The notes under the pieces: generated by a model
What the model was told of the DNA's origin: nothing
The model's input: only the letters and a program-made list of their open reading frames with translations
The model's database searches: none
Position numbers and translations under genes: made by a program
Assembly: GCA_903889445.1 (NCBI GenBank)
Contig: CAISXF010000040.1
Coordinates: forward strand, 1-64,000
From: an uncultured Pseudomonadota bacterium
GTDB lineage: Bacteria > Pseudomonadota > Gammaproteobacteria > Methylococcales > Methylomonadaceae
Length of the DNA stretch: 64,000 nt
Direction of reading: 5' to 3'
Shown here: positions 55,045-64,000 of the stretch, in pieces
Layout: each line of letters starts with the position of its first letter
How positions within the stretch are numbered: the stretch's first letter is position 1

Positions 55045-56685
55045 ATGGCAGCAAAAGAAGTTTTATTCGGTGATGACGCTCGCGTTCGTATGGCGCGTGG
55101 TGTGAACATTTTAGCCAACGCGGTTAAAGTTACTTTAGGCCCAAAAGGTCGTAACGCGATTTTAGACAAAAGTTTCGGCGCACCCACCATCACGAAAGAC
55201 GGCGTTTCAGTTGCTAAAGAAATCGAATTAAAAGACAAATTCGAAAACATGGGCGCACAAATGGTTAAAGAAGTTTCTTCAAAAACTTCTGACGTAGCGG
55301 GCGACGGTACAACCACTGCAACCGTTTTGGCACAATCTATCGTCAACGAAGGTTTGAAAGCCGTTGCCGCTGGCATGAATCCAATGGATTTAAAACGCGG
55401 TATTGATTTAGCAGTTATCAAAGCGGTTGCCGCAATTGTTGAAGCGGCGACACCTTGCACCGATAACAAAGCGATTGCCCAAGTCGGCACCATCTCTGCA
55501 AACTCTGACGAATCCGTCGGCAAAATCATTGCAGAAGCGATGGAAAAAGTCGGCAAAGAAGGCGTTATCACCGTTGAAGAAGGTTCAGGTTTAGACAATT
55601 CTTTAGACGTAGTTGAAGGGATGCAATTCGACCGTGGTTATTTGTCACCGTATTTCATCAACAAACAAGAAAGCATGAGCGTCGAATTAGATGACCCAAT
55701 GATTTTGATTTACGACAAAAAAATCTCAAACATTCGCGACATGTTGCCAGTATTGGAAGGCGTTGCGAAAGCAGGTCGTCCATTATTGATTATCGCTGAA
55801 GATGTTGAAGGCGAAGCGTTGGCAACGTTGGTTGTAAATACGATTCGTGGCATCGTGAAAGTCGCGGCTGTGAAAGCTCCAGGTTTTGGCGACCGCCGCA
55901 AAGCAATGTTAGAAGACGTGGCTGTTTTAACAGGCGGCACCGTGATTTCAGAAGAAATCGGTTTGAGTTTAGAAAAAGCAGAATTGTCACAACTCGGCAC
56001 TGCAAAACGTATTCAAATCACCAAAGACAACACCACGATTATTGACGGTGCGGGTTCTGAAGAAGCGATTAAAGCTCGCGTTGCACAACTTCGCACACAA
56101 GCTGAAGAAGCCACATCAGATTACGACAAAGAAAAATTGCAAGAACGTTTGGCTAAATTGGCGGGCGGCGTTGCGGTTATTAAAGTCGGCGCGGCAACTG
56201 AAATCGAAATGAAAGAGAAAAAAGCGCGTGTTGAAGATGCGTTGCATTCTACTCGTGCGGCGGTTGAAGAAGGCGTTGTGGCTGGCGGCGGTACGGCGTT
56301 AGTGCGTGCATTGTCTGCGTTAGTCGGTTTAGAAGGCATCAATCACGACCAAACTGTTGGTATCAACATTTTGCGTCGTGCAATGGAAGAACCTTTGCGT
56401 CAAATCGTGGCGAATGCGGGCGATGAACCTTCTGTTGTGTTCAACGAAGTGCAAAAAGGTTCAGGTAATTTCGGTTACAACGCGGCAACAGGTCAATATG
56501 GCGACATGATTGAAATGGGCATTTTAGACCCTGCAAAAGTCACTCGGACTGCGTTGCAAAATGCGGCTTCAATCGCGGGTTTGATGTTGACGACTGAAGT
56601 GATGATTGCTGACGCGCCTAGCGATGACAAAGGTCATGGCATGCCTGATATGGGCGGAATGGGTGGTATGGGCGGCATGATGTAA
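55045..56685 (+). CDS. groEL: Chaperonin GroEL, complete copy
   Basis: ATP-dependent folding chamber. 546 residues: MAAKEVLFGDDARVRMARGV start, ATP-binding VAGDGTTTATVLAQ, apical domain with EGMQFDRGYLSPYF (191-204), and the GGMGGMGGMM tail. All domains intact. From codon ~190 to the stop and into the downstream terminator, the sequence is repeated at 59413 and again from 63936. Homologous exchange between copies would regenerate this gene. Confidence 0.98.
   Translation: MAAKEVLFGDDARVRMARGVNILANAVKVTLGPKGRNAILDKSFGAPTITKDGVSVAKEIELKDKFENMGAQMVKEVSSKTSDVAGDGTTTATVLAQSIVNEGLKAVAAGMNPMDLKRGIDLAVIKAVAAIVEAATPCTDNKAIAQVGTISANSDESVGKIIAEAMEKVGKEGVITVEEGSGLDNSLDVVEGMQFDRGYLSPYFINKQESMSVELDDPMILIYDKKISNIRDMLPVLEGVAKAGRPLLIIAEDVEGEALATLVVNTIRGIVKVAAVKAPGFGDRRKAMLEDVAVLTGGTVISEEIGLSLEKAELSQLGTAKRIQITKDNTTIIDGAGSEEAIKARVAQLRTQAEEATSDYDKEKLQERLAKLAGGVAVIKVGAATEIEMKEKKARVEDALHSTRAAVEEGVVAGGGTALVRALSALVGLEGINHDQTVGINILRRAMEEPLRQIVANAGDEPSVVFNEVQKGSGNFGYNAATGQYGDMIEMGILDPAKVTRTALQNAASIAGLMLTTEVMIADAPSDDKGHGMPDMGGMGGMGGMM
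55611..55675 (+). repeat. groEL arm, original copy of the array anchor (first 65 bases)
   Basis: These 65 bases are identical to 63936-64000 and nearly identical to 59411-59475. They mark the common left boundary of each cassette unit, within groEL codons 190-210. Confidence 0.9.
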
Positions 56686-56715
56686 TCATGTTGGCTTAAA
56701 CGCCTTTTAAAATCC

Positions 56716-56755
56716 AAAAAGCCCCGATTTGCTGTGATGCGAGTCGGGGCTTTTT
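56716..56755 (+). terminator. groEL terminator
   Basis: AAAAAGCCCCGA... TCGGGGCTTTTT hairpin, 30 bases after the groEL stop. A related terminator follows groEL copy 2 at 60523-60561. Confidence 0.9.
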
Positions 56756-56796
56756 ATTTTCAATCTGACATTCATCTGACAATTGGACGGTAGAAT

Positions 56797-56886
56797 GATC
56801 TTGGTCACAAGATCAATTAGTTTTTCGTAACATAATAGCTAGGCGGTCTGCTCCCCCAAGATCATCTAAATTTCTTTCAGGGGGCG
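56797..56886 (+). promoter_or_regulatory. Candidate structured leader/attenuator
   Basis: GATCTTG at 56797 can pair with CAAGATC at 56808 or with the second CCAAGATC at 56856. The latter overlaps the C-run (56853-56857) of a possible CCCCC/GGGGG terminator stem (56880-56884) followed by GTTTTT. Mutually exclusive pairing would resemble an attenuator before the PH-domain gene. Direct repeats CTGACA (56765-, 56776-) and TAGAAT also lie here. Confidence 0.35.
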
Positions 56887-56898
56887 TTTTTCAATTTA

Positions 56899-57288
56899 AT
56901 GGGGAATTCTATAATGGGGAGCTACGTTCAAAACAACCTTAATACGGGCGAAGAAGTGGTCTATGAAACTTATCTTCACCCGATCGTTTTAGTTTCATTT
57001 CGCGCTTTTTGTACGTTATGGGTCGCCCCGTTGGTCGAGATATTCACCAGCGAATTCGCTATCACAAACAAACGTATTATCATCAAAGTCGGCTTCATTT
57101 CTAGGAGAACTCTCGAAATGAACCTACAGAAAATAGAGTCCATAAACGTTAATCAGAGCGTTCTTGGAAGAATTTTGGGTTATGGCACTATTGTAGTTAT
57201 TGGAACTGGCGGCACGAAAGAGCGATTTGCTAACATCAGTAATCCACTGAAGTTTCGCAAGCAGTACCAAAATAACGTAAATGCCTAA
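56899..57288 (+). CDS. Bacterial PH-domain membrane protein
   Basis: 129 residues (start possibly Met6 at 56914). N terminus GSYVQNNLNTGEEVVYETYLHP, one hydrophobic stretch (IVLVSFRAFCTLWVAPLVEI), then a bPH_2-type domain (FAITNKRIIIKVGFISRRTLEMNLQKIES). Family members usually have two membrane helices; here one appears to be shortened. Cargo gene of array unit 1, between two terminators. Function unknown. Confidence 0.75.
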   Translation: MGNSIMGSYVQNNLNTGEEVVYETYLHPIVLVSFRAFCTLWVAPLVEIFTSEFAITNKRIIIKVGFISRRTLEMNLQKIESINVNQSVLGRILGYGTIVVIGTGGTKERFANISNPLKFRKQYQNNVNA

Positions 57289-62885: not shown

Positions 62886-63641
62886 ATTATCACGGTGGTA
62901 ATTATTTAAAAATTCGATATACCGATTGTCGTTTTTAACGGCGAGCCAATTGCTATAAAGTTTTTTCACACTTGAACGCGGCATAATTGAAACGCTGGTT
63001 GTTCGACCGCCACCTTCTATTGGCTGCACAATTTTCCCCCAATCATTTTCATCAAGTTTATTGCCAAAAAATACCGCAACGATTTGTGGCACTTGATTTT
63101 CAAAATCCCAAAGCAAGCCCATTAAATTATTCGTTTCGCGGTGGTGTGCTTTCCAATCGTAGGTTCGCATAACGCCAATTCTAGTTTCACCCATATCGGG
63201 TTTTGTTATGCCGAGTTTGGTGCATTGTGTCGGTGTTGGAACTGAACCACAGGTTGCTTTGATTTCGATACCGCCATTTGAAAACGGACTAAACGGCGAT
63301 TTATCTCTCAATTGTTGGTTTTGTTTTAATTGTTCAAACAATGACAATCCAATTTCGTCCATCAACAACAAATCAGGATAGCCGTCTTGATGTGGGTTAC
63401 TGATAAAAAGCCCGTTTGAAGATTTAGCAAAACTTTTTGCAAATAATTCACCGATAAAAGCTGAGAGATTACGCATTCCTAAAATGGCAAAAATATCGAC
63501 AGGAATATCGTCAGTAATCAGTTTAATTACTTGGTGAACATCGATTAAAGCGGCTTCAATTATTTGAATATCAAACTGTAATTGTTGACCATTACCCGAA
63601 ATAAAATGCGTATCGGCGTTTTTGTTAATCAGATAATTCAT
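62871..63641 (-). CDS. Type II restriction endonuclease (R-M 2)
   Basis: 256 residues from ATG 63641 (MNYLINKNADTHF), which overlaps the C-gene stop by 17 bases; an upstream in-frame start at 63683 lies in the C gene. A PD-(D/E)XK active site is visible: DGYPDLLLMDE, then NGGIEIKATCGS (D...ExK). No close named family is recognised. Translation is coupled to the controller gene. Confidence 0.85.
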   Translation of the reverse strand: MNYLINKNADTHFISGNGQQLQFDIQIIEAALIDVHQVIKLITDDIPVDIFAILGMRNLSAFIGELFAKSFAKSSNGLFISNPHQDGYPDLLLMDEIGLSLFEQLKQNQQLRDKSPFSPFSNGGIEIKATCGSVPTPTQCTKLGITKPDMGETRIGVMRTYDWKAHHRETNNLMGLLWDFENQVPQIVAVFFGNKLDENDWGKIVQPIEGGGRTTSVSIMPRSSVKKLYSNWLAVKNDNRYIEFLNNYHRDNLIIK

Positions 63642-63873
63642 TTGCCGCGTCCTTGACCTTGGTAAAAAAAGTTTCAATATCAACGCCCAAAGCGTTAATG
63701 ATTTGTTCCAGTGAATCTAATGTGATATTTCGCACACCTCGTTCAACACCAGAAATATAAGTCCTATCTAAATCTGCTTTTGCAGCAAGTTCTTCCTGAC
63801 TTAAATTGCTGTTTTTGCGAAAATGACGAACTGTTGCCGCTACGGCTTGTACAAGTTTTTTATTTTTATTCAT
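63625..63873 (-). CDS. R-M controller (C) protein
   Basis: 82 residues, HTH_3 fold: LSQEELAAKADLDRTYISGVERGVRN is the classical C-protein recognition helix pattern, and the C terminus is LEQIINALGVDIETFFTK. C proteins delay REase expression until DNA is methylated. Transcribed toward the REase, with C-box operators just upstream. Confidence 0.93.
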   Translation of the reverse strand: MNKNKKLVQAVAATVRHFRKNSNLSQEELAAKADLDRTYISGVERGVRNITLDSLEQIINALGVDIETFFTKVKDAANELSD

Positions 63874-63900
63874 TGGCTAATAATGTTAGTATGTTACTCA

Positions 63901-63922
63901 TTAGTCCACGGACTATAAGTCA
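63901..63922. promoter_or_regulatory. C-box operator of the controller/REase gene
   Basis: Read on minus: GACTTATAGTC, spacer, GTGGACTAATGAGT. It has the tandem half-box layout (activation and repression sites) known for C.PvuII-type C proteins, and shares the GACTATAAGTC 11-mer with 61517-61527. About 28-50 bases upstream of the C start codon. Confidence 0.75.
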
Positions 63923-63935
63923 CTAAACTAAGATA

Positions 63936-64000
63936 AGTTGAAGGGATGCAATTCGACCGTGGTTATTTGTCACCGTATTTCATCAACAAACAAGAAAGCA
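63936..64000 (+). pseudogene. groEL fragment, copy 3 (truncated by window end)
   Basis: 65 bases identical to 55611-55675 of the complete groEL (AGTTGAAGGG then codons 193 on), beginning 63 bases upstream of the C-protein gene. It starts at the same groEL codon as copy 2. Whether it is a further cassette arm or an assembly junction cannot be told from the window. Confidence 0.85.

Follow-up and report, generated by a model that had tools for sequence, protein, structure and literature searches.

Repeated groEL 3' ends alternate with restriction-modification systems in a genus of Methylomonadaceae, where groEL probably acts as an integrase-free dock

We suggest, with a probability of about 0.6, that the essential gene groEL serves as an integrase-free dock for restriction-modification (R-M) systems in a genus of Methylomonadaceae. 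Incoming DNA would bring along cargo, an R-M system and a groEL 3' end and recombine into the locus, and the old 3' end would be displaced downstream as an extra copy, here called an arm. The starting point is a stretch of 64,000 nucleotides (the window), the first 64 kb of a 105-kb contig (CAISXF010000040.1) from an uncultured bacterium whose genome (GCA_903889445.1, hereafter G000) comprises 2.49 Mb in 121 contigs. The named records closest to its GroEL are metagenome assemblies labeled Methylobacter and Methylococcaceae (94% and 93%), and the family is thus likely one of methanotrophs. In the window, groEL is followed by partial copies of itself that alternate with different R-M systems. 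At the level of sequence, the recurrence of this arrangement, the variable arm starts, the mosaicism of the groEL copies, an unoccupied allele and the exchange of modules at a hairpin are established. A fuller picture is tentative: groEL would anchor integrase-free mobile defense cassettes that bring their own replacement 3' end, a locking R-M addiction module, and a terminator hairpin at which cargo, be it toxin-antitoxin modules, cyclic-oligonucleotide-based antiphage signaling systems (CBASS) or other small modules, is swapped.

Results

Stacked units at groEL

Two complete units lie in the window, each with a type II R-M system. Unit 1 (55611-59410) consists of the groEL 3' part, its terminator, a bPH_2 gene, a second hairpin, and an N6/N4 methyltransferase with a restriction endonuclease (REase), which we call R-M1. 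Unit 2 (59411-63935) comprises an arm, a terminator, two small open reading frames (ORFs), a second hairpin, and then a C5 methyltransferase, a REase and a controller (R-M2). The copies appear as direct repeats: 55613-56755 matches 59413-60560 (93.7% over 1148 nt), 55611-55730 matches 63936-64054 (96.7%) and 56544-56755 matches 64066-64279 (91.1%). The length of these repeats excludes a chance origin. The arms differ from one another, which rules out that the assembler duplicated a single sequence.

An earlier note on this DNA had described stacked units of groEL 3' segment, cargo and R-M system, and both the repeats and the repeated unit order bear this out. It had put the constant start of the segments at codon ~191. 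Arms 2 and 3 of G000 in fact start within 2 nt of groEL nt 567 (codon 189/190); this start is constant in the window and for R-M2 of G011 and G015, whereas elsewhere the arms start at codons 1, 47, 53 and 170. The third unit does open with an arm at 63936, as the note had it, but the unit is decayed and only a remnant of its R-M system, R-M3, is left. About 813 nt are missing inside arm 3, between 64054 and 64066. Extending the contig to the right, as the note had advised, carries unit 3 past the window to ~66178, where it ends with a hairpin and a broken start of the R-M3 controller (~66038-66176); R-M3 is intact in the congeners G004 and G007. The cargo of unit 3 is three small genes, one with a Bro-N domain, and the unit holds two further exact copies of the hairpin core described below, at 65050 and 65936. 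With R-M1, R-M2 and the R-M3 remnant all at the G000 groEL, three different R-M systems therefore stood in this array.

Recurrence across the genus

Of 18 genomes of the genus that were searched for groEL, including G000, 17 gave a match and G017 gave none. An arm stands beside an R-M system in 7 of the 18 (G000, G003, G004, G007, G011, G013 and G015), which supports the note's idea of a groEL dock, and the content of the units varies among these relatives. The intact gene and the arm share one contig in G000, G003 and G011, and the groEL pieces are split over two contigs in G004, G007 and G013. In G015, an arm remnant alone was found, with no working groEL, and the contig is cut inside the REase. 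Nine genomes have a single groEL (a ~40% identical paralogue that some possess is not counted), and the G014 contig is cut inside the gene.

At all eight arm junctions, two of them in G000, the arm stands immediately behind the R-M system. R-M1 forms the junction in G000 and G013, R-M2 in G000, G003, G011 and G015, and R-M3 in G004 and G007. The arms, duplications of ~1.1-1.6 kb of groEL, start at codon 189 at four junctions and at codons 47, 53 and 170 at three others; the eighth arm comprises the entire gene, start codon included. Even junctions of one and the same R-M system differ in arm start, and this holds for all three systems. Thus no fixed site is seen, and codon 189 as such a site was ruled out by the different starts in other genomes. 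The R-M system is retained in 7/7 units with both groEL flanks visible. The arms themselves decay: arm 3 of G000 and the arm of G015 have deletions, and that of G011 has a frame break.

Upstream of groEL, moeB and groES are found wherever a contig reaches that far. The downstream neighbors vary, except between G003 and G005, and core genes conserved on both flanks are not a feature of the locus. G005 has one groEL, no R-M system and no arm, and its flanks are syntenic with those of G003; it is an unoccupied allele of the G003 locus. In G012, a CBASS cyclase and a NucC-type effector lie directly behind a single groEL (L043 13261-14759), so that this spot takes defense genes even without arms. 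In G007, a 73-aa ORF (L058 3988-4209) between groES and groEL breaks the operon.

Mosaic groEL copies

Sites diagnostic for the host clade (G012, G002, G010) or for another group (G008, G005) were used to trace the origin of each copy. At 58 such sites, the working groEL of G000 is of the host type at 54, of the other clade at 2 and of neither at 2. Arm 2 of G000 changes clade at nt 890-940: up to nt 890 it has 3 host and 10 foreign sites and from nt 940 it has 26 and 2, and 0/2000 permutations were as strong. Trees of codons 310-520 place this arm inside the host clade (99/99; exclusion p-AU 0.021, the P value of the approximately unbiased test). At codons 190-305, the host clade excludes arm 2 with support of 100/99, and the best tree sets arm 2 beside it (65/90, not starred). 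Over 357 codons, arm 2 and the working copy differ by 49 synonymous changes and in 5 residues, a pattern suggestive of divergence between working groEL genes and not of a decaying duplicate.

The G003 working copy groups at codons 1-120 with its own arm 2 and with the sister genome G005 (89/82, not starred). At codons 310-546, its grouping with G005 is rejected (p-AU 0.0007), and it is arm 2 that groups with G005 (95/97). Thus, in G003, the 3' half of the working groEL is foreign, and the 3' end that resembles the sister's is found behind the R-M system. This is the pattern that the note had likened to elements with a replacement 3' end, and its view that homologous recombination is at work agrees with arms and working copies that include mosaics of different clades. 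A clade of the working-copy 3' ends of G003, G011 and G007 is neither shown nor rejected (p-AU 0.38).

The permutation test covered nine rows with 2000 permutations each. Besides G000 arm 2, arm 2 of G004 is mosaic (0/2000), and the 3' end on G004 contig C150 gives a weaker signal (29/2000). G011 arm 2 (34/2000) has its break where its groEL sequence ends and is not counted as mosaic. The test was not significant for copy 1 of G000 (854), G011 (1994) and G003 (1039), nor for arm 2 of G003 (113) and G013 (658); the mosaicism of G003 is thus drawn from the tree test, not from permutations. The G015 arm, G000 arm 3, G011 arm 2 (in the G003 test) and rows covering <60% of a segment were dropped before the trees were built.

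A hairpin as a second joint

Judged by where similarity between genomes begins, a 27-nt hairpin is the second exchange joint. R-M2 similarity to G011 and G003 begins at the second hairpin of unit 2 (61439/61440), and R-M1 similarity to G013 at that of unit 1 (57346). G003 and G007 share 2552 bp (91%) with the groEL 3' end, its tail, a CBASS cyclase, a SLATT effector and the hairpin, beyond which G003 continues into R-M2 and G007 into R-M3. Between G003 and G011, R-M2 is common (94.8%) and the preceding cargo is different. Thus the differing cargo that the note saw in one genome extends to a reassortment of cargo and R-M systems among species.

The hairpin precedes the R-M system in 6/7 units with a visible left side and is absent in G004 (allowing <=2 mismatches). 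Its core occurs in 29 copies in 12/18 genomes of the genus. By a count made by eye, 22 of the 29 are on contigs with groEL or an arm, all of them downstream and in the same orientation, including one G000 copy that lies 18.6 kb away. Among 219 other genomes of the family, the core was found in one, ~70 bp behind groEL and on the opposite strand. In its fold and its U-tract, the hairpin is like an ordinary terminator. In G003, it is a hybrid of two hairpins (one worn) that bound hicAB in the sister G005, which reads as the mark of hairpin-by-hairpin exchange. An integron attC site was rejected, since no attC-type core was seen by eye in the hairpin contexts.

Hairpins of this type are also found in other settings. 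In G002 (L212, G002:C18 591-2885), four groEL-type hairpins follow one another at distances of 663-925 bp; the small gene pairs between them are PIN-domain and HicAB-like toxin-antitoxin modules. Small Bro-N or phage Rha-type regulator genes with a shared C-terminal part are repeated at several genome sites (L010, G000:C17, 2180-3760; L011, G000:C29, 2851-3627; L009 3093-3812), several with adjoining terminator hairpins.

Divergence of the R-M genes

The yardstick was small and consisted of two core genes, moeB and an ABC permease. R-M1 and R-M2 are less diverged than both. For G003-G011, the synonymous divergence (dS) of the three R-M2 genes is 0.21-0.24 vs 0.87 for moeB and 1.75 for the permease. 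R-M2 gives 0.26-0.54 vs 1.2 and 1.5 for the core genes in G000-G003, and 0.16-0.58 vs 0.75 and 1.0 in G000-G011. R-M1 in G000-G013 has a dS of 0.19 (methyltransferase) and 0.58 (REase) vs 0.81 and 0.89.

R-M relatives, groEL duplications and carriers outside the genus

Among 237 family genomes, the restriction gene of R-M1 (R1) was found in 9, that of R-M2 (R2) in 8 and that of R-M3 (R3) in 3. Within the genus, all eight copies (two of R1, four of R2 and two of R3) are at groEL. In other genera, where 12 genomes have copies, groEL was found at 0/11 fetched R-M loci of 9-17 kb each. The note had named R-M genes unlinked to groEL in related genomes as evidence against it; this is the state in other genera, not within the genus. 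Three R-M1 loci of other genera lie near a prfB-like gene (named by eye). Direct repeats stand immediately beside the R-M system in 2/11 loci, of 923 bp (88.6%) in G078 and of 116 bp (87%) in G018, so that long duplications accompany these R-M families elsewhere too. The R-M1 relative of G078, within its 923-bp repeats (L168, G078:C67 6046-10109), is near reverse-transcriptase-like and variable-region-like ORFs, which by eye recall a diversity-generating retroelement.

Outside the genus, 64 family genomes have at least two GroEL matches; 49 were inspected (15 of genus g17 were left out) and 10 were fetched. The two groEL 3' contigs of G025 resemble strain variants, and the second groEL pieces of G211 (82.9% over 946 nt) and G087 (91.1% over 302 nt) are unplaced. 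In G180, G183, G198, G030, G149 and G143, the copies are degenerate, single, split or distant. In G219 (genus g26; L176 20-1408 and L177 3-350), groEL is immediately followed by a type II REase, and a separate contig has a second groEL 3' end (89.9% over 445 nt); this is likely a further dock with a fourth R-M system, the two pieces not being joined.

The note saw no integrase, and the whole 105-kb G000 contig likewise has no tyrosine recombinase (PF00589), serine recombinases not having been searched; the three PF00589 matches in G000 are all on other contigs. Integration at a tRNA was ruled out, as there is no tRNA in the window. Plasmid records gave 2 matches to R2 (31.6% and 35.4% identity) and 11 to R1, the best near-full one at 52.4%. 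Viral contigs scanned for close relatives of the R-M2 and R-M1 methyltransferases (M2 and M1) gave 1 and 4 pattern matches, none of which was confirmed. With plasmid matches few or distant and viral pattern matches unconfirmed, plasmid or phage carriage was rejected. A ComEC-type gene in G010 makes DNA uptake possible, not proven. No solved structures were found for R1 or R2.

Features of the locus

The features are collected in Table 1. At the right end of the array, beyond the window, lies an ABC permease (L009 4263-5054; G000:C40 66262-67050). The right junction is likely a rearrangement, because the permease is off the groEL contig in all 17 other genomes of the genus.

Table 1. Coordinates of the groEL array in G000
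Feature	Position	Strand	Basis or remark
groES	54708..54995	+	ORF; upstream of groEL in congeners with contigs reaching there
Intact groEL, 546 aa	55045..56685	+	ORF; portion from 55611 is the part repeated downstream
groEL terminator hairpin	56716..56757	+	RNA fold of 56708-56765: -28.9 kcal/mol, z -7.56
Unit 1 cargo, bacterial PH-domain protein (bPH_2)	56899..57288	+	Pfam 5.9e-18
Hairpin joint, unit 1 (27-nt core 57350-57376)	57345..57396	+	G013 R-M1 similarity starts here
R-M1 methyltransferase, N6_N4_Mtase	57398..58237	+	NCBIfam PRK11524.1
R-M1 restriction enzyme	58234..59400	+	PADLOC REase_II 2.1e-157
groEL arm 2 (codons 189-546)	59411..60485	+	5' part unlike host clade, 3' part host-clade
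Terminator of arm 2	60526..60555	+	sequence, RNA fold
Unit 2 cargo ORF, no family (likely start ATG 60585)	60513..60872	+	ORF
Unit 2 cargo, MORN_2 repeat protein	60927..61340	-	Pfam 4.4e-08
Hairpin joint, unit 2 (core 61444-61470)	61439..61490	+	G011 and G003 R-M2 similarity starts here
R-M2 C5-cytosine methyltransferase	61551..62885	+	family and defense profile matches
R-M2 restriction enzyme	62871..63683	-	PADLOC REase_II 3.2e-64
R-M2 controller protein	63625..63873	-	PADLOC Control_protein 2e-21
groEL arm 3 start	63936..64000	+	outside the window to 64054, then 64066-64279 after internal deletion

Discussion

We propose that DNA carrying cargo and an R-M system together with a groEL 3' end, arriving by uptake or perhaps another route, would recombine within groEL at one end, while its other end would join a groEL copy. 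An intact gene would always remain, and the old 3' end would move downstream to become an arm. Where an array is already resident, it provides long stretches of homology on either side, and its units could be replaced, added or looped out. Unequal recombination between arms may thus add or remove units, and such crossovers would again leave an intact groEL. The dock is likely held by putative R-M addiction: post-segregational killing would penalize the loss of a unit, which would explain why 7/7 units retain the R-M system.

Several points weigh against this proposal. All 18 genomes are in multiple contigs, and the arm and the working copy are not together on one contig in G004, G007, G013 and G015. 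No circles or excision products were seen, in material that consisted of multi-contig assemblies only, and both the activity of the R-M systems and their addiction are putative. The placement of codons 190-305 does not tie the 5' part of arm 2 in G000 to a donor, and the working groEL of G000 has no foreign stretch that would mark its left crossover. R-M1 and R-M2 of G000 join groEL at the same codon, which the proposal does not explain. Low divergence between G003 and G011 is also seen in groES (dS 0.15), which belongs to the locus. The dS of R-M3 between G004 and G007 is 0.78-0.97 vs 1.23 for the permease, the sole core gene compared, and R-M3 looks vertically inherited. The pattern may therefore partly reflect the loss of units from an old array. 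Lastly, G003 has a tyrosine recombinase (PF00589; G003:C160:2863-3351) 4.7 kb upstream of groEL on its contig, the only one on a groEL contig among 10 genomes searched.

Taken further, such loss becomes an alternative in which an ancestor gathered R-M1, R-M2 and R-M3 by rare insertions with long duplications and its lineages lost different units, with little docking now. G000 holds R-M1, R-M2 and the R-M3 remnant together where the others hold one system each, the R-M2 junction at codon 189 is common to G000, G011 and G015, and the near-core divergence of R-M3 fits as well. We nevertheless consider this history unlikely, since the divergence of R-M1 and R-M2 is below that of moeB and the permease, each of the three systems has arms with different starts, and the groEL mosaics require recombination with foreign alleles. 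Those mosaics, being homologous in kind, and the varying arm starts also speak against a site-specific element, in which a recombinase acting in trans would use the hairpin or codon 189 and the groEL arm would be merely cargo between sites. Such an element would account for the near restriction of the hairpin to this genus (12/18 vs 1/219 genomes), for its placement (22/29 on groEL or arm contigs, all downstream and in one orientation), for modules that switch exactly at it, and for the recombinase of G003. We give it little credence, because the hairpin is terminator-like, with a U-tract and no attC-type core by eye, and the 105-kb contig of G000 has no recombinase of the tyrosine type (the serine type was not searched). 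It would be more surprising still if the arms were mis-joined groEL pieces of co-occurring strains. Though the contigs are often broken inside groEL, and the groEL 3' contigs of G025, in another genus, do look like strain variants, the codon-189 junction with R-M2 recurs in three genomes, the G003 locus lies on a single contig with both flanks syntenic to G005, and the arms bear decay of their own in G000, G015 and G011.

The groEL dock resembles several known systems. Some integrative elements, such as islands in tRNA genes, guaA or rlmH, replace the 3' end of their target gene with one of their own. The G003 locus is like these, with a working gene that has a foreign 3' end and a sister-like end displaced downstream. 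It is unlike them because the groEL dock has no adjacent integrase on the G000 contig and no fixed core site, and the crossover point varies. In integron gene-cassette arrays, small genes are separated by a repeated hairpin in one orientation. This is also seen at groEL, but there the hairpin is terminator-like, without an attC-type core by eye, and no integron integrase was identified beside it.

The insertion of R-M systems with long target duplication is known (PMC3031569 and PMC3874152, citing Nobusato et al. 2000 and Furuta et al. 2010). In the passages of these papers on such insertions, as at groEL, an R-M system without a transposase lies between direct copies of the target, unequal crossing-over could change the copy number, and a sister species lacks the insertion. 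The duplication ends are also variable at groEL (codons 1, 47, 53, 170 and 189). In contrast to duplications in the order of 100 bp, as PMC3874152 puts it, the groEL arms are ~1.1-1.6 kb of an essential gene. Moreover, three R-M systems use groEL, exchangeable cargo, along with a hairpin, separates the left copy from the R-M system, and there are mosaic copies. The locus is also similar to the integrase-less hotspots described in part of Oliveira et al. 2017 (PMC5635113), with variable cargo by a core gene, no adjacent integrase and recombination in the core gene. It differs from that description in having one constant core flank, the other homology arm being a partial copy of the same gene behind the R-M system. 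One essential gene as both target and arm for several R-M systems is absent from the relevant passages of PMC3031569, PMC3874152 and PMC5635113, and no description of R-M docking at groEL was found among literature titles and abstracts.

Many defense hotspots have no integrases, which raises the question of how their content turns over. If our proposal is true, groEL supplies both homology and safety, because an arm-arm crossover keeps groEL intact, and addiction-type cargo could explain why the duplication persists. Since several species carry differing units with readable crossover footprints, integrase-free, R-M-stabilized docking is directly testable. The recombination machinery of the cell, together with an essential gene, would then do the work of an integrase and an attachment site.

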